Shown in pieces: positions 7,712 to 36,071 of a DNA stretch of 39,673 nt. The position numbers were made by a program, and so were the translations under genes. The stretch lies in the IMG/VR virus record IMGVR_UViG_3300009128_000050, positions 1-39,673 of that record. The stretch is one strand, 5' to 3'. Below the pieces are notes generated by a model. That model did no database searches. It was given only the letters and a program-made list of their open reading frames with translations, and was not told the DNA's origin. Each line of letters opens with the position of its first letter. Position 1 is the stretch's first letter. This DNA is from a virus.

Positions 7712-7717
7712 TGTCGC

Positions 7718-10416: not shown

Positions 10417-10447
10417 GGGGAGAGTGCGAGGTGTCAACACTCTCCCC
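10417..10447. other. 10-bp perfect hairpin after the ERF gene
   Basis: GGGGAGAGTG (10417-10426) and CACTCTCCCC (10438-10447) flank an 11-base loop in the 83-base gap between the ERF gene and the next minus-strand gene. There is no U tract on either side, so it may be an RNA-stability or processing element rather than a terminator. Confidence 0.5.
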
Positions 10448-10470
10448 GTGCGAGCAGTACCTCCCCAGGA

Positions 10471-11490: not shown

Positions 11491-11497
11491 CACACCC

Positions 11498-11854: not shown

Positions 11855-11874
11855 ACCATACCCCCAAAGAGAAG

Positions 11875-11977: not shown

Positions 11978-11987
11978 ATGCCTAACA

Positions 11988-12016
11988 AATCTACACGGGG
12001 TCATCTTTCCTGTCAA
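11988..12016 (-). promoter_or_regulatory. promoter of the recombination block
   Basis: On the minus strand TTGACA (12016-12011), 17 bases, TAGATT (11993-11988): perfect -35 and the same -10 word as early promoter 2. The -10 overlaps the TAG stop codon of the upstream gene. Expected start near 11981, directly before the structured leader. Confidence 0.7.
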
Positions 12017-17099: not shown

Positions 17100-19687
17100 T
17101 AGCCCTCACCCCCCGTCGCAAGTGCGATGTCCCCTTGTGCGGACTGCACCTTATCCACGAAGTCGTCATAGCCGTAGACATCACCGTAGATGTTGATGCC
17201 GCCCCCGCCACCCCCGCGCTTGCCGCCGCCCAGTGGCGTGATGTTGACATGCTCCGGCCCCTCTTCGCCGGCAAGGAACATCGTCGGCTGATTCACCATA
17301 CCCCGGAACCCATCGGCTGCCTTGACACCCTGCTTCGGGCCAGACCACATCGCACCACCGGCGTCCGTTGTCCCCACGACCTTCCCACCCTTCATCGAAG
17401 CCGTGGGATCCCAGATCATCCTCAGAATCGCAAGGATAAGATACTGGAACGCGAGCCGGATGGCCCAAGAGATCATCTCCTTGAACGCTTGCGCCGCGTA
17501 CTTCCCGATGTTCTTCACATCCAGCACCATATTCGCCAGCGCATTCGACACCGGCCTGAGCGCCGACTGCCACATCTGGATCTTCTGCTCTACCACCGCA
17601 GAGTATTGCTCGAACGCGGAGGCGTCGTTCATGTCTTTCATTTCGTTGTCCAGGTCTTGAATGACCGCCAGCAGTTCGTACATCCGCAGGAGCAGCGCAT
17701 CCATGTCCTCGGGTGCGAACCCTGGCACCATCATCATCTGCTTCACGGCGTCGAGTTGCTGCTGGTACACAGCCATCAGGTCTTCCGGCGCGCCGCCAAG
17801 CCCGTGCTTCGCCTCCGCGACCGCTCGCTGTTGGTCTAGCATCGCGGTCATACCCGCAAACCTCTCGTGCGCGGCCTTCGCCCCTTCCTTCTCGGTCTTC
17901 AGGAGGTCTTCGGCAATGCCTTGCTCTGTCCGCATCAGCTCAAGCCGTCCCTTGATCGACAGAATGTACTGGCGGTTCTCGTCGATGAGCTGTTGCACAA
18001 ACCCGAGCGTGGCATGTTCATACCCCGCCACACCGCCCATGTTCAACTGCCACATTTCTAGTCCCACGTTGATAGCCGCAAGTGCATCGGTTTCCTTCCG
18101 CTCGAGAAGGTCTGAGGCCTCCGCTGCATCAGCGATCGCCTTAGCCAAAGCGACGGTTCCAGACGCGGTTATATGAAGGTCTTCTAGCAGGTCGGCAAGG
18201 ACGCTCCTGAAATCGGCCAACCCTTCTCGCGCCCCAGGGGCCATTAGCCCGAACCGGCTCCAATACTTTTCGTTCTTCTCCATTTCGTCCATGAGGTGAA
18301 GCAAGAGCAAGGTACTCTCCTCATCACCAAAGAAGTCCGCCGCACTCACCGCCAACCCCAGAACAGACTTGAGAGAGTCAACCACTTGGGCTGCTGCACC
18401 GGGGTTGCCCACTGGGAGATCCTGCCGAAGTGTGTGTATAGCCTCACCAAGGGCCTCGATCTGCTTGGTGGCAAAATGCAGTTCTTGCCTCTCGAATATC
18501 TTTTCCTCGCGCTCGGAAAACTCCTTCATCATCTCAATGAAAGCCTCCCACCGCTCAAACTCCTGCTTCAGTGCGAGGGCCTTCATCTTCGCCTTTACCA
18601 GCCCGATAGCGATCAGACCCACGGCAGCCGCGATCCCGCCAGCAGCCAACGAGGCGGCGGTGAAGCTCACGATAAGTGTCTGTACCCATTGCACGGCAGT
18701 CATGAGGCTGGCGATAAGCGACCTACCAAGAAGGACTATTGCGATAACTCTCACGATCTCCATGATGACCTTGAGGGGGGTGGCAAGCCGGGGCAGTTCT
18801 TTGATGAACATAATCAAGCGACCCACCCATGAACCAATAGCGTCGCCGATGTCCCACAGTACCTCGCGCTGGTTGTCCACAACGTTCCGCATCTCGCCAT
18901 ATAGCCCCGTGAGTGCAGCCTTGACTTGGATGAACATCGACAGGCCAACCTCGCGCTGCATCTCCACCCAGACATCATGGATGTTGGTCTTGAGGCCGTA
19001 GAGAGTCTTCGCAAGCGTAGCCGCCTGCCCCTCAAACCGCTGGGTCACGATCATGAGAGCCTGCTCAAACCGTGCGGCCTTCGGTAGCTCCTGATTCACT
19101 TCAGCGAGCGCCTGCCGCCACGTTGCAAGGTCGATACCGCGAGCCTGGAGCAGTCTGTTCACGTGCGGCGACTGCGCGAGGATCTTGCCCATCGCGGCGG
19201 CGTAGCCCTCAAGTTCACCGGAGGTCTTGTTCATACCGGCAGCCCAGTCGAGCAGGCGCGGCAGGAACTTCTGGATGTCCTTGCCATAGGCTGTGAGTAG
19301 GACGGACGCTTTCAGGATGGACTCGAAATCGAACGGCGCCTTCATGGCGGTAGCGCGGATGTAGTCGATCTTCCGCTGTGCTACACCAAGGCTGCCAACG
19401 AGGCGTGAGATGGACATAGTGGCACGTTCAAGGATCTCGTTGCCACGCAGGAGTTCCTTGAAGAACTTGACGAACTGGACGGTCACTGTCCGCATGATGA
19501 GAAACGACACAAGCGCACGGGCGACCTGCATGAAGCGGTGAGTAAAGCGCTGGAGCTGGCCGGTGGCCCTGTGGACCGTGCCACCGAACATCTTTGTGAC
19601 CTTCTGGATCCGTGTGAGTTGCGCTGATGCGTCGTCCTGCACCCTCATAACGAGGGTCAGCATCTTGGTTACAGAGTCACCCGCCAC
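17099..19687 (-). CDS. tail tape measure protein (862 aa)
   Basis: GTG 19687. The first 60 residues are helical (MAGDSVTKMLTLVMRVQDDAS). Two to three hydrophobic helices follow in about 300-400 (VIMEIVRVIAIVLLGRSLIASL; AASLAAGGIAAAVGLIAIGLV), then long helical coiled-coil stretches, and a C-terminus with FLAGEEGPEHVNI and a Gly-rich tail, typical of tape measures. It sets tail length; at about 0.15 nm per residue, the usual rule predicts a tail near 130 nm. It is preceded by the frameshifted chaperone genes and followed by distal-tail genes, the canonical siphovirus order. Confidence 0.9.
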   Translation of the reverse strand: MAGDSVTKMLTLVMRVQDDASAQLTRIQKVTKMFGGTVHRATGQLQRFTHRFMQVARALVSFLIMRTVTVQFVKFFKELLRGNEILERATMSISRLVGSLGVAQRKIDYIRATAMKAPFDFESILKASVLLTAYGKDIQKFLPRLLDWAAGMNKTSGELEGYAAAMGKILAQSPHVNRLLQARGIDLATWRQALAEVNQELPKAARFEQALMIVTQRFEGQAATLAKTLYGLKTNIHDVWVEMQREVGLSMFIQVKAALTGLYGEMRNVVDNQREVLWDIGDAIGSWVGRLIMFIKELPRLATPLKVIMEIVRVIAIVLLGRSLIASLMTAVQWVQTLIVSFTAASLAAGGIAAAVGLIAIGLVKAKMKALALKQEFERWEAFIEMMKEFSEREEKIFERQELHFATKQIEALGEAIHTLRQDLPVGNPGAAAQVVDSLKSVLGLAVSAADFFGDEESTLLLLHLMDEMEKNEKYWSRFGLMAPGAREGLADFRSVLADLLEDLHITASGTVALAKAIADAAEASDLLERKETDALAAINVGLEMWQLNMGGVAGYEHATLGFVQQLIDENRQYILSIKGRLELMRTEQGIAEDLLKTEKEGAKAAHERFAGMTAMLDQQRAVAEAKHGLGGAPEDLMAVYQQQLDAVKQMMMVPGFAPEDMDALLLRMYELLAVIQDLDNEMKDMNDASAFEQYSAVVEQKIQMWQSALRPVSNALANMVLDVKNIGKYAAQAFKEMISWAIRLAFQYLILAILRMIWDPTASMKGGKVVGTTDAGGAMWSGPKQGVKAADGFRGMVNQPTMFLAGEEGPEHVNITPLGGGKRGGGGGGINIYGDVYGYDDFVDKVQSAQGDIALATGGEG

Positions 19688-19702: not shown

Positions 19703-20562
19703 TCACTTCTCAGCCTTCTTCTTATCCATCATATCCTTCGCAAACGCCGCACGCTCGGACATAATAATGGCCGCTACTTGGAAGAAGAGCGCGGAGTTCT
19801 CGATCCCGTCTGAGGGGTACGGGAACGATGTTATCCCATGTTCACCGAGAAAGATGCCGACGGTCGAAAGGAGGTAGACCGTCTCGTCGGTGATGAAACT
19901 CATGGGGCAGATTCCGAACACTTGACGGAGGTTCTTCTCAAGGTCGAAATCCTTACCGCGCTCTTCAGCTTCTTCCTGCCCCTCGGTCAGCTCTGCGTAG
20001 ATGTCGGCTACGGTATCGAACTCAGCCCCGTGCCGTGCTGTGATACCAAGGGCGTCAGGGTCGCGCTCCCAAAGACACGCACGTCCAGGCGCGTCTACTC
20101 GGTTGTGCTTTCTGCATCGCTTGCAGCTTCCCCACTGTTGCTTGAACTTGGCGTCGGAGTCTCGTCGTGAGAAGAACCAGACTCCGATCCTGAGTTTTTT
20201 TCCTCATCCTCGTCGAGTGAGGAAATCCCCTGAAGCTCCGCCATGAGTTCTGTACCCACGCCACTTGGCAGGCATTCGTAGAGTTCGTCGAGTGCCTTGC
20301 GCTCGTCAACAAGCGGGATGTACTCGCCCTTGTCGGGATCGTAGGCGTCCTTCACCCACTTCACGCACTTCTGCCAGAGCTTGCGCTGCATCAGCTCCGT
20401 CTGCATCTGCTCCCAGCCCTTCTTCTTTCTGGTGCCGAGAGATGCGGTGAGGTGATCCATCTGTGGCTTCGAGATCTTGACGATCCCGAAGACCACCGGA
20501 CGATCCTCGCCATCCTCAGATGGTGGGGTGAACTCCTGGACTTCCTTGGATATGAGCTTCAC
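19703..20562 (-). CDS. tail assembly chaperone GT-type fusion via -1 frameshift (286 aa)
   Basis: The gene read in frame 0 from GTG 20562 shifts -1 at A-AAA-AAC (20200-20194) after residue 123. The new frame is open, without stops, from 20194 to the TGA ending at 19703, adding 163 residues. The added part starts LRIGVWFFSRRDSDAKF, contains a C-x2-C...C cluster (CKRC and RACLW), and ends DMMDKKKAEK just before the tape measure. This is the G/GT arrangement of siphoviruses, in which both products coat the tape measure during tail assembly. A plain ORF starting at 19921 is not a separate gene in this model. Confidence 0.8.
20095..20562 (-). CDS. tail assembly chaperone G-type protein (155 aa)
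   Basis: GTG 20562 follows GGAGGGTACGCAA. The unshifted product is 155 residues. The first 120 are helical (FGIVKISKPQMDHLTASLG, KLWQKCVKWVKDAYDPDKG, DERKALDELYECLPSGVG). After the slippery codons comes an acidic, Ser-rich disordered tail (GSESGSSHDETPTPSSSNSGEA). It is the abundant form; the -1 product is the longer partner. The gene lies directly downstream of the tail-tube gene, as expected. Confidence 0.8.
   Translation of the reverse strand: MKLISKEVQEFTPPSEDGEDRPVVFGIVKISKPQMDHLTASLGTRKKKGWEQMQTELMQRKLWQKCVKWVKDAYDPDKGEYIPLVDERKALDELYECLPSGVGTELMAELQGISSLDEDEEKNSGSESGSSHDETPTPSSSNSGEAASDAESTTE
20194..20200 (-). promoter_or_regulatory. -1 ribosomal frameshift site A-AAA-AAC
   Basis: In frame 0 the codons are GAA-AAA-AAC, so the heptamer A-AAA-AAC (20200-20194) has the canonical X-XXY-YYZ slippery form in exactly the right phase. 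No in-frame stop occurs in the -1 frame until 19703. Confidence 0.85.
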
Positions 20563-20574: not shown

Positions 20575-21663
20575 CTACGCATCAGGGAAGAATGTCGTGC
20601 CACCGAGATTGGCACCTGTCGTAACCACCTCGATCTCCAGCGGCGAGCGAGTCGGATTGTCCGTGTCTGCAAACGCCTTGAACGGGATCGTGTGCGAGAT
20701 AACAGACTCGCCATCGCTCACGTTCAGGGTCGGCTCGTTGTACTTTACGAGTTGCAGATCGAACTTGATGTAGTCCGCCTCGGCGTTGTTCATGCCCCAC
20801 AGCTCGATAGAAACATCTTCCTCTGACAGGAAGTGCTGCATGAAGCGGTGGTGGTCATACTCGGTCTCGAACTCGCCTGTGACTTCCTGCCGTCCGAAGA
20901 TAAACTTCGACGGGTTCTGCTTGCCGATAACACTGCGAGGATTGAGGTTGTTGTTGATCGTCAGCTTGCAGCTCGTGACATCGTAGTCCGCCGTCCCGAC
21001 GTGTATCGTCCCATGATAATATTGGAACGCATCGAGCGCCGAGTACCTGCTGGAGTTGCCACCCGGATCCTCGCTTGACACGAAGTCCGTCAGCGCAAAT
21101 GAGCCGGCTATGATTGTTGGGGTGAAGGTAATCTCCTCACCCGCCGCGAAGTTGACCTCTAGTTGACTCACAACACAATCGCACCACCGGCGTCCGTTGT
21201 CCCCCGTGATGTTCTCACCGAGCTTCTGTTCGATAGTCAGTGCGAGGACATCGTTGGTGGTGTCGCCGTAAGTACCCGTACCCGCGTTGGCACTGGGGGT
21301 GAATGGTGCTCCACCCGTGACGTTCGCGCCGCTCCAGTCAGGCTGACCCGCGAGGGGGTTGAAGACAAACGTGCCATCCACCGTTGAGCGGTAGACCTGC
21401 ATCACCGAGCAGAGAAGGCCAAGGCAATCGTCACTCCTTGGTTGGAACGTGAACTGCCCGCCCGGTGTACGGCCCTGGAACGATCTCGCCTGTTTGACTA
21501 CACTGCGACCATGCACAATCTTGGCCGTATTCTCTTTGATCTCCTGCCCGATCCCCATTGACTCGCTGTCGAGATACAGGACATAGGCGTCTGTGAAACC
21601 ATAGTTACCCCAGCCGCCCGTCTGTGCCCGCACTCGAAACCAGGATTCCCAGCCTACTGCCAC
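20575..21663 (-). CDS. tail tube (major tail) protein (362 aa)
   Basis: The chosen start is GTG 21663: AAGGAG is nine bases upstream. GTG 21672 is too close to that site. The 362-residue protein is rich in strands and threonine/glycine, with an N-terminal part like a tail-tube fold (WESWFRVRAQTGGWGNYGFTDAYVLYLDSESMGIGQEIKE) and a C-terminal part ending PLEIEVVTTGANLGGTTFFPDA that resembles an accessory surface domain. It precedes the chaperone genes, the standard place of the major tail protein. It forms the hollow tail tube. Confidence 0.75.
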   Translation of the reverse strand: MAVGWESWFRVRAQTGGWGNYGFTDAYVLYLDSESMGIGQEIKENTAKIVHGRSVVKQARSFQGRTPGGQFTFQPRSDDCLGLLCSVMQVYRSTVDGTFVFNPLAGQPDWSGANVTGGAPFTPSANAGTGTYGDTTNDVLALTIEQKLGENITGDNGRRWCDCVVSQLEVNFAAGEEITFTPTIIAGSFALTDFVSSEDPGGNSSRYSALDAFQYYHGTIHVGTADYDVTSCKLTINNNLNPRSVIGKQNPSKFIFGRQEVTGEFETEYDHHRFMQHFLSEEDVSIELWGMNNAEADYIKFDLQLVKYNEPTLNVSDGESVISHTIPFKAFADTDNPTRSPLEIEVVTTGANLGGTTFFPDA

Positions 21664-21677
21664 TTCGATCACTCTCC

Positions 21678-22682: not shown

Positions 22683-23766
22683 GTCGCATCCTTGGTGATC
22701 GTGCCGCGTTCGGCTGACCCGCGATGGTCTTCCTCAGCGGTACACAGGTAAAAACCCAGATGTCGTCAGCGTAGACTTGGTTCGTAAGCCCACCCACCCG
22801 CTCAAATCGGACATGCACCCCGTCCTCGAGAAGCATCCACCCGGTGTCGCACGAGATGCCCGTGTAGGACCAGTTGACCCCGTTGTCGCTCGACCACTTG
22901 AAGGTCGAGTCGTCAAGGTCTCTTGTGGCACCTTCAGAGTCGATCTTCACAACATAGGTCTTCTCGTAGTCCGCGCCGGAATAGAGACTCACGTAGCCGT
23001 AGCGGTCAGAGTGGAAGAGTCCCGCACCCTGGTTGTTCGTACCCGCGACCGCAGGCCCGATACCCGATTCAACTTTGTTTGTCTGCTCCTCGAATACGAG
23101 GTTACGGCTGCCGATGGCATCGAGTAGTCCCTCACCAGCGGCCCGGAAGTCGGTGATCCAGTCCGGCATCTCAAAGTGTTCGCCCCGGTGTCGGTTCTGC
23201 GCGAGGTAGTAGTTGGCGAAGTAGGCGTTGCACGCTATCAGGAACTCGTCATAGACACCGGCGGAGTTCGTTGCCACAGGTACGGACACGTCCGGCAGGA
23301 GCGCCTGAAGACGCGAATTGATGAAGTTGAAGCCCTGCTCAATAATCCCGTTCCCTTCGTCGTCTGTATCGTAGTAGTTCGCCGCGCCGGAGAGCCCGTA
23401 CTGCTCGAGATCCGAAAGGGTACAGTAGCCCGCCGACGGTGCGATTGCGATATTGGCAATCTGCTCGATGAACGGGAACGGCGAGATTGTGCCGCCACTC
23501 GATCCGAGACAGTACCAACGCGCCGATAGCGCCCCTGTGCCACACGTTCCCCCAAGGGGGTGTTGCTGGACCTCATACGCACCCACTGTGCCTGAGACGT
23601 TGGCTATGGCTGGTGTAGATGAGCCTGAGAGTGTGCCCTGCACCGCACCCTGCCCATCCATGAGGACCACGAAGCTCTGATCGAGGCCGATGTAGGCGAG
23701 CACGCCCGCGTCGTCCTTGTACTGCATGTCGAAGGATACCGATCCACTCGGATAGAGCGTCTGCAC
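22675..23766 (-). CDS. head completion/adaptor protein with extra domains (363 aa)
   Basis: GTG 23766. The middle (about 110-225) has the pattern of small head-tail adaptors: YCTLSDLEQYGL, IIEQGFNFINSRLQALLP, then ACNAYFANYYLAQNRHRG and PDWITDFRAAGEGLLDAI. Such adaptors are usually 100-150 residues. Here extra strand-rich parts flank it: residues 1-105 (SVSFDMQYKDDAG..., resembling a BppU-type sugar-binding or baseplate fold) and 240-363 (YEKTYVVKIDSEGATRDL..., DGVHVRFERVGG). The result looks like a fusion of an adaptor with surface-exposed domains. Function inferred from position and central motif. Confidence 0.55.
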   Translation of the reverse strand: MQTLYPSGSVSFDMQYKDDAGVLAYIGLDQSFVVLMDGQGAVQGTLSGSSTPAIANVSGTVGAYEVQQHPLGGTCGTGALSARWYCLGSSGGTISPFPFIEQIANIAIAPSAGYCTLSDLEQYGLSGAANYYDTDDEGNGIIEQGFNFINSRLQALLPDVSVPVATNSAGVYDEFLIACNAYFANYYLAQNRHRGEHFEMPDWITDFRAAGEGLLDAIGSRNLVFEEQTNKVESGIGPAVAGTNNQGAGLFHSDRYGYVSLYSGADYEKTYVVKIDSEGATRDLDDSTFKWSSDNGVNWSYTGISCDTGWMLLEDGVHVRFERVGGLTNQVYADDIWVFTCVPLRKTIAGQPNAARSPRMRRG

Positions 23767-24809
23767 TACTCTCGACCCCCAATCATACCAACATTCCGTC
23801 TCTCGATATGCCCGCCCCCGCCGCCAAGGTCAATCGTCTGCGTGTGGATAATCTCAAACCCGAAGACTTCTGGTGCAAGACGCATATCGCGGTAGTTGTC
23901 CATGCCGGTTCCGGCTCCATTGTCCACACGCACAAGCAACTTCGCGTCTGCAACCGGCGATATGCCAGAGACATCCCCGTTGTCCGGTAGATCTGTCCAT
24001 GCGCCTGCGCCGTACTTGTACTGGTACGCGATGTCACAGAACTGCTCCACACCGCTGCCAATGCCATGTGGATTATCGCGGGGCACAACCCGTAGGATGT
24101 CCACCGTGTCCGTCGGCGTCACCCACCCTGAGGCCGTCTTGAGTTCTGCGGCGCCGATAGCATGCGTCGAGACAATGGGCCAACTCTGGCCGTCCACACC
24201 TGCGCCACAGAGTAGCTGTGTGCCGTTACAGTTACTACCATGGATCTTCAGATAACTAACGTCGAGCGCCGTCATTGACCGCGCTTTCCAATGGACCTCG
24301 CCGCCAAGTACAACATTCCACGTCGTACCGTAGCATTGAGTCTGGTAGTCGTAGAATGCCCCCTCTGTCAGTTGCAGCCCCGTATCGGCAACGCGCCGGA
24401 GGTCGCTAACATCTACGAGCCACTCGCGGTAGCTACTCGCACCCTTCCACCCATTCTGGACAGCCCAACTGCCGCCATCAACGGCAACCTCGTTGCGACT
24501 CACAACAAACCACGTTCCTAGGGCGGGTGCGATGCCGGGCCATGAAAAGGAGAGGTTCACTTGGAAGTTGCCCAACTCTCGCGGCGCGCCCCCTAGACTA
24601 TGGATGTAGGTTGTGCCCACCTCGAGAATCGCATGGTCGTTCCCGTTGTTCGAGAACGGCGGAGTCTCACCCCAGTTGGCCGCGTTCCAATAGGCGTTGT
24701 GCCATGGTTGGGTCATGGTGAGCGAACCGCCGCCCGCCTCTGCCTCACCCGTGAGCGTCCAGTCGGAAGGTGTCGAGAAATCCACGAATGTCGCGTAGGT
24801 CGCAATCAC
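23766..24809 (-). CDS. hypothetical strand-rich structural protein (347 aa)
   Basis: GTG 24809 overlaps the preceding gene as TAG-GTG. The 347 residues are almost all strand-forming with many Trp, Gly and Asn: WTLTGEAEAGGGSLTMTQPWHN, HAILEVGTTYIHSLGG, LGNFQVNLSFSWPGIAP, as in jelly-roll or carbohydrate-binding modules. The C-terminus contains VDILRVVPRDNPHGIGSG. It sits between the glycosyltransferase genes and the head-adaptor gene, so it may be a decoration protein or the protein that the sugar enzymes modify. No family recognised. Confidence 0.6.
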   Translation of the reverse strand: MIATYATFVDFSTPSDWTLTGEAEAGGGSLTMTQPWHNAYWNAANWGETPPFSNNGNDHAILEVGTTYIHSLGGAPRELGNFQVNLSFSWPGIAPALGTWFVVSRNEVAVDGGSWAVQNGWKGASSYREWLVDVSDLRRVADTGLQLTEGAFYDYQTQCYGTTWNVVLGGEVHWKARSMTALDVSYLKIHGSNCNGTQLLCGAGVDGQSWPIVSTHAIGAAELKTASGWVTPTDTVDILRVVPRDNPHGIGSGVEQFCDIAYQYKYGAGAWTDLPDNGDVSGISPVADAKLLVRVDNGAGTGMDNYRDMRLAPEVFGFEIIHTQTIDLGGGGGHIERRNVGMIGGRE

Positions 24810-25511
24810 CTAGTCGTACACCTCCATTGCGAGATTCTTGAAGGTCGGTCCGGTCCACTTCTCCATGAACGCCTGTTGGTCCTGCCCCGCTAGCCACTTC
24901 TTCGAGTCCGGAGGGTTGGATGAGAAACTGAGCGTGTGCCGCACTCGGGAGTCAGGTACGTACCAGATGTCCCAGCCGGCGAGTCGCGCTCTGAACGAGA
25001 TGTCCGCATCAGACGAGAGCATCAACATGTTCTCGTCGAGCAGCCCTATCTCCCGGAGCATGTCAAGCCTCAGCATCATCGCGGCCCCGTTTGCCCAACC
25101 CATCTGCTTCGGTTCCAAGTGATCGCCTTCGGAGATGTGCCCTGTGTAGTGAACGCCCGGCATCACAGGGCCGCTGCCGCCGAAGGTTATCATGTCCCCA
25201 TCGTCCGGGTGGATCTGCATGCTTGCCGCGATCCCACACTTGGGGTGTTCATCCATCCACTTCGTCAGGGCCTCAATAGCGCCAGGGAGCGGGACCGCGT
25301 CTTGGTTCAGCACCCAGACATAAGGAGAGTCGGTCAGTGTTCCACACTCAAGAAGGACTTCCCGCAATCCCCGGTTGACGGTCTTGGTGAAACCATCCCC
25401 AGTCTCATCCACGACGCTACGTAGCAGCACGTCCTGTTCCTTGAGGGCGGCTACAACCTCTTCGTAGACCTCACACTCACCGTACCTAGGAATCACTACC
25501 GGGACTTGCAT
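24810..25511 (-). CDS. family-2 glycosyltransferase, rhamnosyltransferase-like (233 aa)
   Basis: Start ATG 25511, with GGAGG six bases upstream; the other ATG at 25517 is too close. The fold motifs of GT2 are visible: VPVVIPRYGECEVYEEVVAAL, a variant nucleotide-sugar site in WVLNQDAVPLPGAIEAL where D-x-D is replaced by N-Q-D, a GPVMPG...GWANGAAMMLRLDMLREIGLLDENM acceptor region, and DISFRARLAGWDIWYVPDSRVRH, as in the WbbL/rhamnosyltransferase-like subgroup. It would transfer an activated sugar to an acceptor. It overlaps the upstream GT gene by 26 bases and is the last of four sugar-transfer genes in the cluster. Confidence 0.85.
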   Translation of the reverse strand: MQVPVVIPRYGECEVYEEVVAALKEQDVLLRSVVDETGDGFTKTVNRGLREVLLECGTLTDSPYVWVLNQDAVPLPGAIEALTKWMDEHPKCGIAASMQIHPDDGDMITFGGSGPVMPGVHYTGHISEGDHLEPKQMGWANGAAMMLRLDMLREIGLLDENMLMLSSDADISFRARLAGWDIWYVPDSRVRHTLSFSSNPPDSKKWLAGQDQQAFMEKWTGPTFKNLAMEVYD

Positions 25512-26670
25512 CGCCATCCTCCACCGGCCTCATGGCCGTGATTGCGTGTTCCTTGCCATGCCCGCGCTGCACCTTGACATCCATGAATCCTGCTATCTTG
25601 ACGGCGCCCAACAGGAACTCCGGCGTGTAGCCACCATAAAGGGGCCGCTCCGCCGTCCCTATCAGTGCCACAATGAGTCCATCGGGGCCATAACGCTCTT
25701 CGTCATTCGCCCGCTTGAACGCGAGCATCTTGGAGAGGATGTTGTCGAACTCGACCACCAACACCCCGCCCGGCGTGAGGAGATTGTAGAGACTCTGAAG
25801 AATCTCCTCCAATGAGGCTGGATCGTACTCGTCAAACACGCCGTCGCAGAGGATGCTCCCGTACTGCTCGTAGTCGCCCGAGAGCCAGTCCGTTGTGACA
25901 TCAGAGGAGTCGTTGTCGAGCGCGTTGACCCAACCATCGCGGGGCTCATGCCCCCAGTAGAGCTTCTTGGCCGGGCGCTGTGAGTACCGTTGGAAGTGGT
26001 AGCAGAGCATATCGTTGCACCGTGCGGTGGTGTTGCCCGCCGCCGTCCACTGGCGGAAGAAATCGACATCGTTGTGGTGCGGGAACGGCCTCGCCGTGTT
26101 GTAGCCGCCGAGTGCGAGGAAATCCTTGGCGAAGAACATTGCGGGCATGTACCAACCACGGGTGTCAAACGTGACCTCCGGCTTGCGGTGCTTCTGCGCC
26201 ATCTCACGGAACTCAGACTCCTTGAAGTGCGAGGGATCCATGCCAAAGTTGTAAGCGATATTCAGCTCCGAAACACTGACGAAACCGGGTTCAACCACAA
26301 CGCCCGTCATGATGATCCCTTCTTCCAACTTCTTCCGTGCGACGGTGTCCCAGTCGGGCGCGAAGACCATATCGTCGTTGACAAGGCACACCACGTCTCC
26401 CGTGGCCCTCTCGACACCGTAGTTGTAGCTCCCGTACACGTCGAGCTGCCCTCGCGGGTTGTAGACCGACACCACCACAGGGTTCTCGGTAGTCGGGCTC
26501 CCGTGCTTCTGTTGGTAGGCCCACTTCTTCACATCGTTGGTCGCGTTGCACAACACCAGTACGATCTCAAGCGAGCCGACCGTTGTAGCCTTCAGGGTCG
26601 CAACGCAGAGCTTGAGTGCATCGAGCGCTAGACCAGTGACCACGACTACAGAGACATCAGGCTTCCACAT
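25486..26670 (-). CDS. GT2 glycosyltransferase fused to degenerate methyltransferase domain (394 aa)
   Basis: ATG 26670 follows AAAGGAGATCCTCG. Residues 1-240 are a GT2 domain: DVSVVVVTGLALDALKLCVATL, the GDVVCLVNDDMVFAPDW sugar-nucleotide site and MPAMFFAKDFLALGGYNTA acceptor region. From about 245 the sequence follows a COG4627-type SAM methyltransferase (LYWGHEPRDGWVNALDND, EILQSLYNLLTPGGVLVVEFD), but the G-x-G-x-G loop is replaced by LYWGHEPRDGW, so SAM binding may be lost. Fusion of sugar transfer and (possibly relict) methylation suggests processing of a methylated sugar. The N-D-D acid cluster makes the GT half plausible as active. Confidence 0.8.
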   Translation of the reverse strand: MWKPDVSVVVVTGLALDALKLCVATLKATTVGSLEIVLVLCNATNDVKKWAYQQKHGSPTTENPVVVSVYNPRGQLDVYGSYNYGVERATGDVVCLVNDDMVFAPDWDTVARKKLEEGIIMTGVVVEPGFVSVSELNIAYNFGMDPSHFKESEFREMAQKHRKPEVTFDTRGWYMPAMFFAKDFLALGGYNTARPFPHHNDVDFFRQWTAAGNTTARCNDMLCYHFQRYSQRPAKKLYWGHEPRDGWVNALDNDSSDVTTDWLSGDYEQYGSILCDGVFDEYDPASLEEILQSLYNLLTPGGVLVVEFDNILSKMLAFKRANDEERYGPDGLIVALIGTAERPLYGGYTPEFLLGAVKIAGFMDVKVQRGHGKEHAITAMRPVEDGDASPGSDS

Positions 26671-27820
26671 CGAGGATCTCCTTTGCTTTCTCCGCTATCA
26701 TCTCTGGGCTGATCTCCTTCATACAGTCCGGCTCGACGGCACAGAGGCCGTGCCTTTTCTGTTTCAGTGCCTGTGACTCTGCGAGGAGCGCGCCTGGCTG
26801 TGTCTTGAGTCGCCGTGCAGCATCTTGAATCGGAACCTTCTCCCGCTCTAGTTCCGCAATCTGCTTCTCGCGTGCGGAGAGTTGGTTGATCGCCCGCTTC
26901 TCTGACAGGCCACACCAACCACCCAGGGTGAAGCACGGTGAGCATGGCAGCTTCGATTGAATAGCGTGCGAGTTGGGATAGTCTCTCTCTCGTGTCCACC
27001 CCGGAACAGTGGTGTAGATGGTGAGTGTCGGCGTACCCAAAGCTGCGGCGATGTGCGAGTACCCGCTGTCGGCACTGATGAGGATGTCCATGTGTGATAC
27101 CAGGGCGGCGGATTCACGTAACCCATGCTCCCCGGAAGTATCAACATCCTTCCTCCCCACCTTGTCGGTGATGATCCAATGCTTCCGGCTATCGTCAAAG
27201 AAGAGCACCTTGATGTTCGGATCGAGCACCCGGAGTCTGTCGGGCAGTTCGGTCTCACGATACCAAGTGCGTGCAAGGCTGGATGCGTGGAGGTGTATCC
27301 CCACAACCCGCTCGCCCGGCTTCTTCGCTATGCGCTCCTTCGCCCATTCCCGCTCTTCGTCTGTCAGCACGAACCCCGGCACCTTGTCCTCTACCGTGGT
27401 GGGGTCGATATGACACCACCCCAGCGCCATGTCAACCCAGTGCGTGTAGTTGGAACTCATGGACTCGCGCCATGGGCCGTCGGTGGGCGCGAGGTGCATC
27501 CACAGCTCGGGGCTGTTGCGCTCAATCGAGAACTTGAGATCGAACACGAGATCGTAGTTGCCCTTGATGCTCTCTAGTGACACCCACCCATTGTCGCGCT
27601 GGATGCAGTCTATGTTCGTCGGTGGAAACCGCTTCACTGGCAGGATCTTGTCGAACGTCTTGTCCTTCACGAACAGGTCCGCAATCTCCGAGCGCACGGC
27701 GAAGTGGATGCGGCAGTGCTTGTACTTCTTCTTCAGCTCGCGTGCGTTGATGTTCATAATCACGCTGTCGCCGATCCCGCCGTACCGTACAATCAGGATC
27801 TTCTTAGCACCCTTCCGCAT
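26657..27820 (-). CDS. family-9 glycosyltransferase, heptosyltransferase-like (387 aa)
   Basis: ATG 27820 follows GAGGGGGCGAACG and overlaps the upstream gene by 17 bases. The GT9 signatures are present: ILIVRYGGIGDSVIMNINARELKKKY at the start, a donor-side GERVVGIHLHASSLARTWY, SHMDILISADSGYSHIAAALGTPTLTIYTTV (the D-S-G-x-x-H signature of ADP-heptose-type enzymes), and the cysteine-rich end SKLPCSPCFTLGGWCG with later CAVEPDCMKEI. A coiled-coil insert (about 310-350) is unusual. GT9 enzymes add heptose or related sugars to lipopolysaccharide or proteins. Presence in the virion operon suggests virion or surface glycosylation. Confidence 0.85.
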   Translation of the reverse strand: MRKGAKKILIVRYGGIGDSVIMNINARELKKKYKHCRIHFAVRSEIADLFVKDKTFDKILPVKRFPPTNIDCIQRDNGWVSLESIKGNYDLVFDLKFSIERNSPELWMHLAPTDGPWRESMSSNYTHWVDMALGWCHIDPTTVEDKVPGFVLTDEEREWAKERIAKKPGERVVGIHLHASSLARTWYRETELPDRLRVLDPNIKVLFFDDSRKHWIITDKVGRKDVDTSGEHGLRESAALVSHMDILISADSGYSHIAAALGTPTLTIYTTVPGWTRERDYPNSHAIQSKLPCSPCFTLGGWCGLSEKRAINQLSAREKQIAELEREKVPIQDAARRLKTQPGALLAESQALKQKRHGLCAVEPDCMKEISPEMIAEKAKEILDVEA

Positions 27821-28535
27821 CGTTCGCCCCCTCAGGCAGGATGTCAGGATAGGTCTCAGTTCCCGCGTTTGGATCGAGCCTTGTCATATCAACCCCATAT
27901 TCACGTCCAACGCCTAGAAGACTCTTCACCCGCTTGGCGAAGTTCTCCTCAAGCTGTCGCATCTGTGGATCGTTCTGAAGCGCACGGTTCTTCGATGCGT
28001 TCTCGACGCCGGCCAGTGTCCGCTCGTGAACGATAGCGCCGGTAGTGACCCACATCTGCTTCGGTGATCCGATCTCCGGGTGGGTGTGCATCCGGTCGCC
28101 GTAGCGCAGCACGCCCTTCTTGAACAGGCGCGGCTGCCAGTCGTCGCCGAGGATAGGGAAGATGTCGGTACCGTCGATGTAGTTCTCGCGCCTGAGCCAG
28201 TAGAGATCAACACCATGCGAATCATCGGCAAGGCGGGGCAGAATCTTCGCCAGCTTCTCGCTGAATACCTCATCCACGTCGAGCGTGAGAACCCACTTGT
28301 TCTGTGCCTGCGCGTATGCCCACGTCCTGTCGGGATCCGGGAACCCCTTGCGCCTCCGCGTGAGAACGTGGTCTGCCAGTCGTTCGGCAACAGCGCGAGT
28401 GTCGTCGGTCGAGGACTGGTCAACCACAAGGATCTCACCGCCATCCCCGATTATCTGCCGCACGGTGAGCAGTAGTTCGCTCAGTCGCTCGGCATCGTTG
28501 TAGACGAAGGTTACAAACGTGATCGGCTCGCGCAC
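27804..28535 (-). CDS. family-2 glycosyltransferase, WaaE/KdtX-like (243 aa)
   Basis: GTG 28535 follows AGGGAGGGAATC. GT2 motifs of the core-glucosyltransferase-like branch are clear: ITFVTFVYNDAERLSELLLTV, GGEILVVDQSSTDDTRAVAERLADHV, the WVLTLDVDEVFSE D-x-D metal site, and LGDDWQPRLFKKGVLRYGDRMHTHPEI. A C-terminal helical part (about 180-240) ends the protein. It would transfer a hexose to an acceptor sugar or protein. First gene of the sugar cluster in the transcription direction, starting 10 bases after a structural gene. Confidence 0.85.
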   Translation of the reverse strand: MREPITFVTFVYNDAERLSELLLTVRQIIGDGGEILVVDQSSTDDTRAVAERLADHVLTRRRKGFPDPDRTWAYAQAQNKWVLTLDVDEVFSEKLAKILPRLADDSHGVDLYWLRRENYIDGTDIFPILGDDWQPRLFKKGVLRYGDRMHTHPEIGSPKQMWVTTGAIVHERTLAGVENASKNRALQNDPQMRQLEENFAKRVKSLLGVGREYGVDMTRLDPNAGTETYPDILPEGANDAEGC

Positions 28536-28545: not shown

Positions 28546-29157
28546 CTAGGATCCCCTCTTGTCCTGAGTGTCGTACTTCACCGCCGTCGGTCCAACGTAG
28601 TGGGCCATGTACTCCAGGCTCGCCCGCAGAAGCGCCAGCGTCCCCAGCGGCCCCGGCGCACCGTTGATCGCCTGCTGGAACTCCATGAAGAGCGTGTGCC
28701 CCGGCGAGACTGTACCGAACGTCCCACTTGTGAGATCCATCGCCCATGTACCATTGTGCATGCAGTAAGATGTCGTACCCTCGTCGCCGATAACCGTTGT
28801 CGCCGAGAGCGCGGTGCTCTTTGTCCCGTGTGGGCTGTCCCAATCCTGCGCCACCCAGTACAGGAACCGTAGGTTGAAAGTCCCATCCTTGAAGTCGCCC
28901 GTCGGGTACTGCGCCCATGTGAGGCGGAGAACGATGTTGCTTGTCCCGTCCCAGTCGGTCGGCACCGGCGCCGTCCACATAACACGCGCCTTCTTTATAA
29001 CCGTCCATGGTTGCATGGTGAGGGCAAAGACTGTGCCTGGGCACGCCGTAGATGTCAGTTTCTCCTCACCACATCCCGGCGTGCGGTCGTTACTGTAGTC
29101 AAGCGGCAGTTCAAGGAACTTCTTGTGCCAGATATGTGGGAAAAAGGCGTCAGGCAT
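28546..29157 (-). CDS. capsid-associated beta-sandwich protein, paralogue A (203 aa)
   Basis: ATG 29157 follows GAGGTGAGAA. Strand-rich protein with VMWTAPVPTDWDGTSNIVLRLTWAQY, which matches VNFTAPIPSNWSGDSNFRMVLWFAQ in the neighbouring 29212-29856 gene, so the two are paralogues. Both follow the major capsid gene. They are probably head decoration or surface proteins, and since the four glycosyltransferase genes start just after this gene, they are plausible acceptors of the sugars. No named family. Confidence 0.65.
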   Translation of the reverse strand: MPDAFFPHIWHKKFLELPLDYSNDRTPGCGEEKLTSTACPGTVFALTMQPWTVIKKARVMWTAPVPTDWDGTSNIVLRLTWAQYPTGDFKDGTFNLRFLYWVAQDWDSPHGTKSTALSATTVIGDEGTTSYCMHNGTWAMDLTSGTFGTVSPGHTLFMEFQQAINGAPGPLGTLALLRASLEYMAHYVGPTAVKYDTQDKRGS

Positions 29158-29211: not shown

Positions 29212-29856
29212 CTAGTGTGCCGGTCGATCAACCGAGAGCTTCTTGGACGCGAGCGTACCCGAGACCGTACCACCGGCCTGCTCCGCCCAATATCCAATCT
29301 GCGCCCCGATCAGGAGCGCCTCTCCGGTTGTACCGAGGGTCCGCCTGTAGAGCTTGAACCCGAGCCATCCGCCCGCCTCAGCCGTACCGTGGCTGTTGCG
29401 GTAGGGGATGTCGATCTCGAGTTGGTGCTCGTAATACTGCACGGTCCCGTCGGCCCCGAGCGTCAGTGTGCCATCAACCGTCTGGAAGGTTCCGCCCGCT
29501 TCATCTCCGAAGGCGACGTAACCATACTCCGCCCGCCAGGCATACTTCTCACCCGTCGTCTCCGCTGCCGCCTGTGCAAACCACAGCACCATGCGGAAGT
29601 TGGAGTCGCCCGACCAGTTGGACGGGATGGGCGCTGTGAAGTTGACGTACTCCAAAGTCCCGGTGAGCGTGCCGGTAATTGGTGGCATCGAGAACGTCGG
29701 GAAGCAGCCGAGCATAACCGTAGTCGGCACGGTGCTCCCGCCGCTCGCCTCCGCCGGCGTCATTCCTCCGGTCAGCACTCCGAAGTAGTCGTAGAACGAT
29801 CCGGTCAGTTCGTGGAGAGAGGGAGCTGCAATCCCACGGCATACGTTTCCGCCCAT
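29212..29856 (-). CDS. capsid-associated beta-sandwich protein, paralogue B (214 aa)
   Basis: ATG 29856 (upstream GGGGGACTGGCAACC is a weak fit). Strand-rich, Gly/Thr-rich protein with the same TAP-x-P-x-x-W-x-G-x-SN motif as the next gene. C-terminal strands TGEALLIGAQIGYWAE. Immediately downstream of the capsid gene, so likely a decoration protein. Similarity is partial and confined mainly to residues 70-170, indicating an old duplication. Confidence 0.65.
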   Translation of the reverse strand: MGGNVCRGIAAPSLHELTGSFYDYFGVLTGGMTPAEASGGSTVPTTVMLGCFPTFSMPPITGTLTGTLEYVNFTAPIPSNWSGDSNFRMVLWFAQAAAETTGEKYAWRAEYGYVAFGDEAGGTFQTVDGTLTLGADGTVQYYEHQLEIDIPYRNSHGTAEAGGWLGFKLYRRTLGTTGEALLIGAQIGYWAEQAGGTVSGTLASKKLSVDRPAH

Positions 29857-29874: not shown

Positions 29875-30837
29875 CTAGGTGAATATCCGAATCGCGTGAG
29901 TGCCACTGTCGGCGTAGGCCTTCGCCATCCCAAGAACGGTCTTCCACTTCCATGCTTGGGCGCGGTTCGCGTCCTGCCCGAAGTCGGGGTAGTAGAAGAG
30001 CTCCATCGGACTTGAGACCGCCATTGCGAACGCATCTGCTCCGAACGCTATCGACGTACCCGCATCCTGGCCCATGTTCGTCTCGAAGATCACGAAATCC
30101 TCGAAAAGGCCAACCCGCGAGTTGAAGATGCCGTCTCCGTTGTTGTTGTAGAGCTGGAGGTTCTGCCAACCGACATCATTCTTCAGCCCTCGTGTCACTG
30201 CCGGACCCGCGATCAGGCCGTAGTACATCCCATATCCGGGGATCTCGATCTTCGGTACGACATGCTCCGCGTGGTCGCCCTGGAACTTGTCGTAGATCGT
30301 CCCGAGTACGTCACCGGACAGCGTGCCGGTCGGGTCTGTAGTCACGTCACCTGCCGGCTTGTCCTGAAACGCCGTGACCCCCGTATTCATGCAGATCGCG
30401 CAGTGCCGTGTGGTATGGAAGAGCGAGCCGACAAGCCAGTCCATCGTGTAAACGAAGTCCCGTGCGAGGCTCTCTTCCACCTGTGCGGGGATACTCGCGG
30501 CTGAGAGGTCAACGTAGATCCCCTCGGTGACAACGCCGTTACCGTACTCCGTAACGGTGATGTCCATCCGCGAACTCTCCTGCGTTCCAGTGTAGATACT
30601 CGTTCCCGGAACCAACGCAGCCGTACCTCTGTGGTGCGCGAGGTTCGTGAACATCGGGACGTGCAGCGTGTCGCCCGGTCCACCACCAAGCTCTTCGTAG
30701 TAGGTGATGAACTGCGGGAACAACGCAAGCCCCATAGCGCGCCTGAGAACCTGCGTACTCCAGATCTCAGGAACAGTATTACTGCCCCATGTAGACTTCT
30801 GAGTCAGGTCTACACCAACGTCGCCCGGCCAACCCAT
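29875..30837 (-). CDS. major capsid protein, N4-gp56-like HK97 fold (320 aa)
   Basis: ATG 30837 follows GAGGGTGAAGTAG. The 320-residue product matches the N4-gp56-type capsid pattern: TVPEIWSTQVLRRAMGLALF, GGGPGDTLHVPMFTNLAHHRGTAALVPGTS, ITVTEYGNGVVTEGIYVDLSAAS, and a C-terminal DFVIFETNMG...MELFYYPDFGQDAN with a final RIFT. It forms the icosahedral shell. The next gene upstream is a scaffold-like protein and the next are decoration proteins, the usual order. No N-terminal propeptide is seen, consistent with the use of a separate scaffold. Confidence 0.8.
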   Translation of the reverse strand: MGWPGDVGVDLTQKSTWGSNTVPEIWSTQVLRRAMGLALFPQFITYYEELGGGPGDTLHVPMFTNLAHHRGTAALVPGTSIYTGTQESSRMDITVTEYGNGVVTEGIYVDLSAASIPAQVEESLARDFVYTMDWLVGSLFHTTRHCAICMNTGVTAFQDKPAGDVTTDPTGTLSGDVLGTIYDKFQGDHAEHVVPKIEIPGYGMYYGLIAGPAVTRGLKNDVGWQNLQLYNNNGDGIFNSRVGLFEDFVIFETNMGQDAGTSIAFGADAFAMAVSSPMELFYYPDFGQDANRAQAWKWKTVLGMAKAYADSGTHAIRIFT

Positions 30838-30854: not shown

Positions 30855-31538
30855 CTATTTGGGTGTCTTACGACTCACGCCCTGCTGCCACTTCGCCGCT
30901 ATCGCCATAGGTGATTCCCCGGAGAAAGGCGTGGTACGCCGCCCGCCACTTGAGCTCACAGCCGGACTGCCCGGTGTGTCGCTCGGTGGCCCGTACTTGC
31001 GGAGCATCATCGTCTGCGCCTTCTCCATACCGTCCAGCGCGCTCTCGAGGAACTCATCTACATCGCCCTCGCCAGTCCAAGCCTCAAGGTATTCCGGCTT
31101 GATGAAGTCGGGGTAGACCGCAGTCTTTTCCGAACCCGGCAGAAGCCGCTCAAGGTTCTTCGTCAGGAGGCCCGTCATCAGACTGGCCTGGCTGAGCTCG
31201 CCTGTGAGTCGTGTATTGTCTGTTGTCAGTGTCGTGTTGGAAAGCGTCAGCCTATCGACCTCGGACAGGTCAGCCGTGGCCTTCTCGGCTGCCGCCTTCT
31301 CGTATGCGTCAAACTTCTTGAGCTTCTTGCTCAGTTCTCCGTTCTTCACACTCAGGGCGACCCTGCGATAATCGTCAAGATTCGCCGCATCCTTCGCACT
31401 CACAACCTTCATCCCTGAAGCCTCAAGTGCAAGGATCGCTTCGTTGTGCTTGTCCCTGTCAAAGGACGCGCCGGCCCCCGCCGGATCTTGGTCTGTGCCT
31501 TGGCTCCCGCCGTCAGTGATAATTTCGTCTGGCATCAT
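30855..31538 (-). CDS. scaffold-like protein (227 aa)
   Basis: ATG 31538 (or 31535) follows GGGAGCGA. Acidic, helical protein with an Asp/Gly-rich start, a coiled-coil middle (YRRVALSVKNGELSKKLKKFD, later NTTLTTDNTRLTGELSQ) and a C-terminal basic patch (AAKWQQGVSRKTPK), which is typical of capsid scaffolds that bind the shell through a positive tail. It lies between portal and capsid genes, where scaffolds belong. No protease domain is seen. Confidence 0.75.
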   Translation of the reverse strand: MMPDEIITDGGSQGTDQDPAGAGASFDRDKHNEAILALEASGMKVVSAKDAANLDDYRRVALSVKNGELSKKLKKFDAYEKAAAEKATADLSEVDRLTLSNTTLTTDNTRLTGELSQASLMTGLLTKNLERLLPGSEKTAVYPDFIKPEYLEAWTGEGDVDEFLESALDGMEKAQTMMLRKYGPPSDTPGSPAVSSSGGRRTTPFSGESPMAIAAKWQQGVSRKTPK

Positions 31539-31561: not shown

Positions 31562-33058
31562 CTAGTCTGCCAACTCTCTTTGCACCTTATCTTGCTCTTG
31601 GCTCTTCTCACCTGCCGAGACGGCGCCCGAGCCACCACTGCCCCCGAAGTACCCTTTGTTCGCTCCGAACAGTGGGTCTTCTCTGCACTTTTCTTTATGT
31701 GCTTCAATCTGCTTGTCGGTCCAGAGCGGATGTAGTGTCCGAAGCTGGTCATCCCAGCTCCTAAGGCCGAGTTCCCTGTCTACGCGCATACCCTCGGATT
31801 CAATGAAGCTATCGACCGGCAGGAACTTGGTCGGCCAGATGATCTCGACATCTCGGGACTCAAACCTTGCACCGTGGAGTTTTGTCAGGATCTCGAGGTC
31901 GCCCTGCATCCGCTCGCGCTCTGCCTTGCCAAACGTCTTCTGCTGCGCCAGTATCGCTCCCCGAGCCGGCGCGAACGCAAGCTCAAGGGCGGGGGCGCTC
32001 CGCAGGTCGCCGGCACCTTCCGCGAAGAACGCAATTTCCGGAAGGCTAGAGAGTGCCATCAGGAACACAAGCAGCTTGTCGCAGTGCCGGGATGAGGCCT
32101 CAATGTTCCCGTCCCATGTCAGATAACGAAGATCGTTCTCGTCCTTGCTGCCCGGAACCTCTACCGTTCGCCTTGTCCCGCGCACAAGCTCGTCGATTGA
32201 GAAACCGAAGGCAACAAGCATGGGCAGACTGTGGTACTCGATGATCGCGCCCTCGTCGGACATGCGCCGGTCAAGGAGCAGGTTGACGGCTGCGGCATCC
32301 TTGAAGTCGCTGATGCCGTAGGGCGTGACGGGGAGCTGGTAGTTCCGGTAGACCGAGAAGACCGCGTTGACGCTGCCGACCGGGTTCGCGCCCTTGTACC
32401 TCGCGTAGTTCATTGTATCTGGCTGGCCGTCTGTGCCGTTCTGGAGCTTCCCGTCTACCCAGACCAACCACTCGCTGTCTGTGATCCACTCTACATAGTC
32501 GTGGGGCTCGTTGAGTTCGCCCCTGCGTTGATCGACCACCGCCACACCCGACTTACCATCGTATGCGTAGTGGATGATAACCTCTTTGATCTTGGTCGGC
32601 ATCGCCGGGTAGTAGATGAGGGTGACATAGATGGAGTCCACGGTCTCATAGACAATTGGGATCTCCTCGCCCTCCGGAAACTCAGACGGCTTGTAGCGTG
32701 CGATTGTATAGCCCGTCCCTGTCACGCCGGCTACGGTCTTGATCCCCTGCATGTGGACTGCCATGTCCGTGCGTTTCCAGAGCTTCTCCATGAGCCTTTG
32801 GGCCTCGGGGTCTTCGCACTTCCGTGTCACGTCGCGGCCATAGAGGTAGGTGGTCATCGTGTCCACAACGCGGCGGAGGAAGTTCAGGCTGTAGGCCTCG
32901 TTGGCAATGCGGTGCGCGTAGTCCTTGTCGTCTTCACCGTCGAACTTCGGGAAGAACCTGGTGTGTTTGTTCAGGTAGAGATCCCACGCAACCGCGAAAT
33001 CCCGGAACCTCTCTTCTTCGTGTTCATCGACGAGATCCATTACGTTTGCGAGAACCAT
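31562..33058 (-). CDS. portal protein (498 aa)
   Basis: Start ATG 33058 is preferred (GAGAAGAAGAC upstream); an in-frame GTG at 33091 overlaps the upstream stop. The 498-residue protein has the portal layout: an N-terminal helical wing (DEHEEERFRDFAVAWDLYLNKHTRFF, RIANEAYSLNFLRRVVDTMTTYLYG), stem/crown strands (KTVAGVTGTGYTIARYKP), and the central EYHSLPMLVAFGFSIDELVRG...SSRHCDKLLVFLMALSSLPEIAFFAEGAGDLRSAPALELAFAPAR, like portal-type HK97 relatives. It forms the dodecameric DNA gateway. Neighbours terminase, MTase and scaffold agree. Confidence 0.75.
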   Translation of the reverse strand: MVLANVMDLVDEHEEERFRDFAVAWDLYLNKHTRFFPKFDGEDDKDYAHRIANEAYSLNFLRRVVDTMTTYLYGRDVTRKCEDPEAQRLMEKLWKRTDMAVHMQGIKTVAGVTGTGYTIARYKPSEFPEGEEIPIVYETVDSIYVTLIYYPAMPTKIKEVIIHYAYDGKSGVAVVDQRRGELNEPHDYVEWITDSEWLVWVDGKLQNGTDGQPDTMNYARYKGANPVGSVNAVFSVYRNYQLPVTPYGISDFKDAAAVNLLLDRRMSDEGAIIEYHSLPMLVAFGFSIDELVRGTRRTVEVPGSKDENDLRYLTWDGNIEASSRHCDKLLVFLMALSSLPEIAFFAEGAGDLRSAPALELAFAPARGAILAQQKTFGKAERERMQGDLEILTKLHGARFESRDVEIIWPTKFLPVDSFIESEGMRVDRELGLRSWDDQLRTLHPLWTDKQIEAHKEKCREDPLFGANKGYFGGSGGSGAVSAGEKSQEQDKVQRELAD

Positions 33059-33087
33059 GTCTTCTTCTCTGCTACGCCCCAAACCGC

Positions 33088-33702
33088 TCACCCCGCCTTA
33101 CGAATGATCGAGGTAATGAACTCCCCCGACCCGTGGTGTATCGTAGCGTCTATCCCGAGCGCGATGAGCCGCTCGACCATCTCCAGCGTCGTCTCTGGTG
33201 CGTGCCCCGCCCCGTAGTCGGGGTAGTTGCTCGTATGCAGGTCTTCGATAACGTACCAGCCGCCCGGACGCACGTGCGGCCAGAGGAACGCGAACGTCAA
33301 CTGTTGCTGCCACATCGTGTGCCCACCATCGTCTACAATGAGATCGAAATACCCACCGAGATCCGTTGTACATGGAGTCACAAACCATCGTGCGGTTCGC
33401 TTGGATTTGGCTATGCGTCGGAGGTCGGACAGTTTGCCTTGGTCGCCGATGAAAAACAGGAACCTGTCGTCGGTCGGCCACAAGCTCCTGTTACCTTCAA
33501 CACCAAGATCCATCCCCACCACCTTAGCGTGCGGGAAGTAGTCGAGCCACATGTGGTGCGAAGCGCCGTCTTTGATGCCGACTTCCAACATCAAACCCAA
33601 CCTGTCACGGTATTTCCCAAATGCCTCATCGTAGAAATCACAGAATCCATGGTCGGCCTTGTCGGAACCGTGCTTCAGTGCGAGTTCATGCAGAACACCC
33701 AT
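33088..33702 (-). CDS. class I SAM-dependent methyltransferase with 14-residue insert (204 aa)
   Basis: ATG 33702 follows AGGGAGGCACA. The domain resembles macrocin-O-methyltransferase-like enzymes: LALKHGSDKADHGFCDFYDEAFG, LMLEVGIKDGASHHMWLDYFPHA (SAM motif), VVGMDLGVEG, then YFDLIVDDGGHTMWQQQLTF and PGGWYVIEDLHTS. Between LRRIAK and GGYFDL lies an extra SKRTARWFVTPCTT whose DNA is identical to part of the terminase gene (33364-33406 = 33975-34017). The insert sits in a loop between conserved motifs, so the protein may still fold. Sugar O-methylation is a plausible role given the glycosyltransferases downstream. Confidence 0.75.
   Translation of the reverse strand: MGVLHELALKHGSDKADHGFCDFYDEAFGKYRDRLGLMLEVGIKDGASHHMWLDYFPHAKVVGMDLGVEGNRSLWPTDDRFLFFIGDQGKLSDLRRIAKSKRTARWFVTPCTTDLGGYFDLIVDDGGHTMWQQQLTFAFLWPHVRPGGWYVIEDLHTSNYPDYGAGHAPETTLEMVERLIALGIDATIHHGSGEFITSIIRKAG
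33364..33406 (-). repeat. 43-bp direct repeat, copy in methyltransferase gene
   Basis: Identical over 43 bases to 33975-34017 in the terminase gene, 611 bases away and in the same strand orientation but a different reading frame. In the terminase the segment encodes the conserved N-R-T region (QANRTMVCDSMYN), so that copy looks ancestral. Here it gives SKRTARWFVTPCTT and interrupts the methyltransferase alignment. Confidence 0.95.
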
Positions 33703-35789: not shown

Positions 35790-36071
35790 CTACACTGTTA
35801 CTCTGTGCCGATCCTTCAATTCACCTTTCTTCCCCCGGTTCCATTGTGAGGCCCTACTCATGTAGCCTGTGACCCGTGTGATAAAGTCCACATCGCGGCC
35901 CTGAGCACAGGCGGCGAGGATGGTGTCGAGAGTGTTGTCCTCTACCGCCTTGAAGGTGAGATGGGTCTTTGTCTGGAAGCGCAGGTTTGTGATGAGAACA
36001 CCGTCGGGGTCAACTCCCCATTCCCAATCCTCGTGCCCTAGGAGAAAGTCTGTCAGGTCTTCTAGCTTCAT
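35790..36071 (-). CDS. hypothetical protein (93 aa)
   Basis: ATG 36071 follows AAGGAGGGAACGGCGA. An acidic, strand-rich start (EDLTDFLLGHEDWEWGVDPDGVLITNLRFQTK), a helical middle (DNTLDTILAACAQG) and a basic end (RGKKGELKDRHRV). No family recognised. Overlaps the next gene by four bases (ATGA). Confidence 0.65.
   Translation of the reverse strand: MKLEDLTDFLLGHEDWEWGVDPDGVLITNLRFQTKTHLTFKAVEDNTLDTILAACAQGRDVDFITRVTGYMSRASQWNRGKKGELKDRHRVTV

Follow-up and report, generated by a model that had tools for sequence, protein, structure and literature searches.

Glycosyltransferase and sugar O-methyltransferase genes among the head genes of a phage: a probable virion-glycosylation cassette with a GT9 enzyme

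Glycosylated virion proteins have been reported for the phages Che8, Corndog, and Myrna (PMC12363180, citing Freeman 2023), and Corndog gp38 and Che8 gp110 are reported to be essential for capsid glycosylation in work cited by PMC12363180 and PMC11256854. Phage-encoded glycosyltransferases (GTs) modify the capsid protein of Che8 (cluster F) (PMC11256854; PMC12363180), and the GT genes of Maravista, a relative in the Che8 cluster, are located near the 3' end of the genome, outside the head operon (PMC11256854). In cluster O phages, O-methyltransferase and GT genes lie between the portal and protease genes; the enzymes were detected in infected cells and not in purified virions, and capsid modification was proposed (PMC4351075). 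The gene order in Catdawg (Corndogvirus) is terminase, HNH, portal, O-methyltransferase, three glycosyltransferases, protease, and major capsid protein (MCP); the O-methyltransferase and the three GTs of Corndogvirus form one run of few enzymes beside the portal gene, without genes for nucleotide-sugar synthesis. In Gratiaviridae, a HipA-like kinase, an AAA ATPase, and a glycosyltransferase are inserted between the portal and MCP genes, from which the authors infer a change of the host capsule (PMC8008677).

The window analysed here is a whole linear virus record of 39,673 bases from an uncultured tailed phage, in which, as in Corndogvirus, several GTs and an O-methyltransferase stand among the head genes. 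Its morphogenesis block, on the minus strand, spans about 12.7-35.3 kb (Table 1). Four complete minus-strand open reading frames (ORFs) occupy 24810-28535; a Pfam profile search with curated cut-offs, which all four pass, assigned them from the first to the last gene to GT2, GT9, GT2, and GT2. This bears out an earlier note that had read three GT2-type frames and one GT9-type frame here, overlapping or within a few bases of each other, placed within the virion gene order (upheld by PHROG matches for the terminase large subunit (TerL), portal, major head protein, and tail protein), with a SAM methyltransferase beside the portal gene. The overlaps amount to 17 nt (27804/26657), 14 nt (26657/25486), and 32 nt (25486/24810), and the 24810 gene abuts the next gene, whose start is 24809. 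The GT genes have a GC3 of 0.72-0.77 (0.70-0.77 for most neighbors) and a phage-like codon bias, and promoter- or terminator-like sites in 22-34 kb did not exceed shuffled expectation; on this basis, the GT genes appear to belong to a single late operon. Two unknown genes and then two small genes, on the minus strand, lead from the GT cluster to the 20575 tail gene.

Table 1 Features of the morphogenesis block in the window. GT, glycosyltransferase; MCP, major capsid protein; TerL, terminase large subunit.
Feature	Coordinates	Strand	Match or remark
Terminase large subunit, GpA type	33712-35268	-	phrog_675 1.1e-85; PF05876 3.6e-23
Sugar O-methyltransferase (MycE/TylE type, predicted)	33088-33702	-	Between TerL and portal
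Portal protein	31562-33091	-	phrog_64 1e-25
Scaffold-like gene	30855-31538	-	Between portal and major head protein
MCP, candidate glycan acceptor	29875-30837	-	phrog_1357 6.2e-7
Putative head accessory protein 1, candidate acceptor	29212-29856	-	Directly after MCP gene; weak paralogy
Putative head accessory protein 2, candidate acceptor	28546-29157	-	Directly upstream of first GT2; weak paralogy
GT2 glycosyltransferase a	27804-28535	-	243 aa; GTG start; AGGGAGG ribosome site
GT9 heptosyltransferase-like glycosyltransferase	26657-27820	-	387 aa
GT2 glycosyltransferase b	25486-26670	-	394 aa
GT2 glycosyltransferase c, rhamnosyltransferase-like	24810-25517	-	235 aa
23766 protein, candidate virion protein and acceptor	23766-24809	-	By position only; directly downstream of GT cluster
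Tail protein, possibly tail tube subunit, candidate acceptor	20575-21672	-	phrog_290 1.5e-23
Probable tape measure	17099-19687	-	In morphogenesis block
NlpC/P60 gene	12739-13215	-	Low-coordinate end of morphogenesis block

Two proteins encoded between the MCP gene and the GT cluster (28546 and 29212) had been described as paralogues encoded by capsid-decoration-like genes. The likeness holds, albeit weakly (BLASTP E=8e-7); the decoration role is inferred from position only. Pfam and PHROG profile searches gave no family match for the 28546 protein or for the 23766 protein, and the AlphaFold model of the 29212 protein is beta-rich, with a pLDDT of 40 (2-sequence alignment) that is too poor for a fold search.

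Outside the morphogenesis block, the record encodes a homologue of the DNA polymerase III beta clamp (1323-2492, plus strand; PF00712 1.1e-10) and an ERF single-strand annealing protein (10471-11655, minus strand; PF04404 1.2e-17). Hexamers of GCCGTA/GCCGGA are repeated in tandem over about 150 bp (9407-9560), directly downstream of the small minus-strand ORF 9561-9863. A stand-alone protein of 93 aa (35790-36071, minus strand) has a C-terminus that matches the last 35 positions of the anaerobic ribonucleotide reductase NrdD (PF13597 E=1e-7); it is possibly a "spare part" glycyl-radical domain, and this NrdD-like end may hint at an anaerobic host. No tRNA was found in a search of the window.

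The first gene of the cluster, GT2 a (27804), matches PF00535 (E=2e-13) and carries the DxD-type motif DVDE at 28269-28280. Its closest solved structure is the flagellin O-GlcNAc transferase GmaR (1.9e-5); next come a 5tze-type glycosyltransferase and the S-glycosyltransferase SunS (0.003). GmaR and SunS attach sugars to proteins, and GT2 a is a candidate initiating transferase; the GmaR match is weak evidence, because some GT2 enzymes are over-represented among solved structures. The GT9 protein (26657) matches PF01075 (E=1.2e-12; 48.2 bits vs. a cut-off of 22) and has both the N- and the C-terminal family motifs, GIGD at 27767-27778 and DSG (DSGYSH) at 27062-27070, with an insert of about 60 aa between its C-terminal cysteine motifs when aligned with other phage GT9 proteins. 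Its top-scoring profiles are those of LPS heptosyltransferases I/II (TIGR02193, 1.7e-11), at scores well below the equivalog cut-offs (43.9 vs. 185.3 for TIGR02193; 40.6 vs. 134.6 for TIGR02195). GT2 b (25486) matches PF00535 (E=9.2e-10) over residues 7-162 only and has the motif NDD at 26371-26379; its AlphaFold model (pLDDT 40, 5-sequence alignment) is too poor for a fold search. The methyltransferase matches of its about 150 extra C-terminal aa are not significant (E 0.09-0.9), and a degenerate methyltransferase domain is not claimed. GT2 c (24810) matches PF13641 (E=4.2e-11) and TIGR01556 (2.9e-5); its N-terminal lobe is shortened and its motif is NQD, at 25299-25307.

The methyltransferase (33088) matches phrog_21658 (3.4e-30) and PF13578 (1e-5). 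Among solved structures, it matches MycE (3ssm, 1.5e-16) and a demethylmacrocin O-methyltransferase (8ia9, 1.3e-12), both of which methylate antibiotic sugars. Its VDDGGH (33319-33336) and IED (33241-33249) align with IDDGSH and IED of MycE, acidic, His, and Glu-Asp positions that are the metal ligands and catalytic His of MycE. Judged by sequence, the predicted product closely matches the MycE/TylE-type sugar O-methyltransferases; these have about 400 aa, whereas the product in the window has 204 aa, is without their N-terminal half, and has a terminase-derived insert of 14 aa that they do not have. Virus records often contain related methyltransferases. Of the 30 such records that also bear a GT2 gene, 22 have the nearest GT2 at <=5 kb, vs. 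8.8 expected under random placement; this count is conditioned on GT2 being present and the records are partly redundant (near duplicates). In the mycobacterial prophage prophiFSIL01-1, a homologue of the methyltransferase gene directly adjoins one for a glycosyltransferase, a short way upstream of the terminase-portal-capsid block.

Within the methyltransferase gene, 33364-33406 is an exact 43-nt copy of 33975-34017 in the terminase gene. The insert, SKRTARWFVTPCTT (14 aa), is in frame and is absent from MycE and the phage homologues; in the sister record introduced below (L002/L004), the edge of the insert is longer by 3 in-frame bases, giving a match of 45 nt. In the window only, 17349-17375 of the tape-measure gene is a 27-nt exact copy of 21178-21204 in the tail-protein gene; unrelated sequence is present at this spot in the sister record (L002, about 20446-20470), and both versions are in frame. 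The 43-nt and 27-nt copies look like short ectopic templated patches, and may be assembly artefacts; such patches resemble short-patch double illegitimate recombination (SPDIR).

Compared with Corndogvirus, the window has four GTs including a GT9 enzyme instead of three, its methyltransferase gene lies upstream of the portal gene and its GT genes downstream of the MCP gene rather than in one run, and its terminase and capsid differ. BLASTP gave no similarity between the enzymes of the window and those of Catdawg (E 0.33, 3.2, and 1.8 for three pairs), so that the cassette is convergent with the Corndog type or very remote from it: the same layout reached by a different route. Gratiaviridae likewise have a glycosyltransferase inserted between head genes, but a single one, accompanied by a kinase and an ATPase, with no methyltransferase named.

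Only one close relative of the phage was retrieved, IMGVR_UViG_3300013120_000077 (hereafter the sister record), which is 99.9% identical over the common stretch and also has the GT cluster; a portal query against genome contigs gave no match. Among 36 records related by their terminase, many of them fragments, GT2 was present in the sister record only and absent from the other 35, and the cassette thus seems not to be part of the ancestral block; the terminase relatives have only the terminase detectably in common with the window. Three phages with related capsids (L176-L178) have, by reading, no recognisable sugar genes after the MCP gene. On these grounds the cassette counts as accessory, and it could serve another purpose.

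Sugar genes of other kinds were found beside the virion genes of two uncultured phages. In L003, whose MCP (phrog_1357, 1.3e-11) is 23% identical to that of the window, they occupy 6015-12033, directly after the MCP gene and one small gene, in the order GT4, PIG-L deacetylase, hexapeptide acyltransferase, unassigned gene, methyltransferase, and two GT9-like genes. In L172, a hexapeptide transferase (acyltransferase) gene and a GT9-like gene stand right before the structural genes. When viral contigs were scanned with a GT9 profile, only the sister record and L172 matched; the GT9-like proteins encoded by L003 and L172 escape PF01075 and were called by likeness to the GT9 protein of the window or by GT9 alignment. 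Three faecal "phage" matches (MT837749, MT836343, MT836917) are unverified and unannotated and were excluded as phage evidence. Differing sugar genes would thus appear to fill this slot in different phages, a lead rather than proof, with cases as few as two or three. A wider proposal is possible but doubtful: the slot after the MCP gene may be a recurrent insertion site for different sugar pathways in unrelated phages, not only actinobacteriophages, with virion glycosylation having evolved many times, and the capsid here may bear a methylated oligosaccharide that includes a GT9-transferred (heptose-like) sugar.

We consider it probable, with some reserve, that cytosolic enzymes of the cassette decorate a virion protein with a short glycan, which is probably methylated. 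The GmaR and SunS matches of GT2 a, the Corndog layout, and the sugar genes beside the virion genes of L003 and L172 would speak for a virion target, and the earlier suggestion of a multi-sugar, possibly methylated glycan has gained from the type of the methyltransferase, the likeness of GT2 a to protein glycosyltransferases, and the Corndog precedent. Counted against it are the accessory distribution among terminase and capsid relatives, the lack of likeness to Corndog-type enzymes, and the fact that GT2 and GT9 sequences do not tell protein acceptors from lipid acceptors. The best profile scores of the GT9 protein, with LPS heptosyltransferases, would equally suit enzymes that extend or cap host LPS or capsule late in infection and so stop adsorption of released or competing phages to the dying cell or debris. 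The glycosyltransferases of Gratiaviridae (PMC8008677) and of pelagimyophages (PMC7029224) have been read in this way. Such remodelling of the host surface is rather unlikely here. Pfam and sequence scans of the four-GT cluster found no membrane anchor or helix, flippase, lipid-carrier transferase, or acetyltransferase; the Gtr-type O-antigen conversion module (GtrA flippase, membrane-anchored GtrB) is absent from the cluster, and the catalytic domain of GT2 a gave only a weak match to phrog_841 (E=0.00028) when tested for such a module. The cassette also sits amid head genes, where the sole experimentally tested analogue, Corndog, is reported to modify virions.

Decoration of modified bases in DNA, which would block restriction, is a well-known role of phage glycosyltransferases (PMC12619734); we regard it as highly improbable for this locus, because Pfam scans of the record found no hydroxymethylase, TET/JBP-type oxygenase, or thymidylate-synthase-like gene (the record is incomplete and such genes could lie outside it). 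In addition, none of the four GTs has a TAGT match, and their genes are in the head operon and not among replication genes. That the sugar genes are transient cargo, inserted recently from a host and without selected function in the phage, would fit their accessory distribution, the odd 14-aa insert in the methyltransferase, and the shortened N-terminal lobe of GT2 c. Against this, the codon bias fits the phage, the frames are all open, the motifs are kept, the genes overlap tightly, and the window and the sister record differ at the insert without loss of frame; we find this explanation improbable.

For glycosylation of the virion, the following course is proposed. The cassette would be expressed late, and since no nucleotide-sugar synthesis genes were found, its cytosolic enzymes would draw on host nucleotide-sugar pools. 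GT2 a would attach a sugar to a Ser/Thr (or Cys) residue in one of the abundant virion proteins, the GT9 enzyme and the other two GT2 enzymes would lengthen the glycan, and the methyltransferase would cap it or methylate a hydroxyl. The likeliest acceptors would be the MCP (29875), the head accessory proteins 29212 and 28546, or the tail protein 20575. As to the benefit, the particle surface may be shielded or altered, e.g., in adsorption or stability, which is a guess.

Most likely, the locus is a further phage cassette for particle glycosylation that was assembled independently. The earlier note had called such a system uncommon; this was overstated, as the Corndogvirus layout goes with virions found by experiment to be glycosylated, according to the cited work, and the uncultured L003 and L172 add to it, so that head-operon glycosylation cassettes are already known as a kind. 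New as an instance are the GT9-containing cassette and its different enzymes, in a phage without a close relative in the phage collection; its five genes (four GTs and the methyltransferase) are a defined set for co-expression without phage or host. The interest lies in the recurrence of such cassettes. In the literature found, mycobacteriophages are the only phages shown to glycosylate their virions with enzymes that they encode; the like layout with unrelated enzymes, together with the clusters of L003 and L172 beside structural genes, suggests that sugar-coated particles are more widespread, a coating that bears on antibody avoidance, non-specific adsorption, and the persistence of phages.
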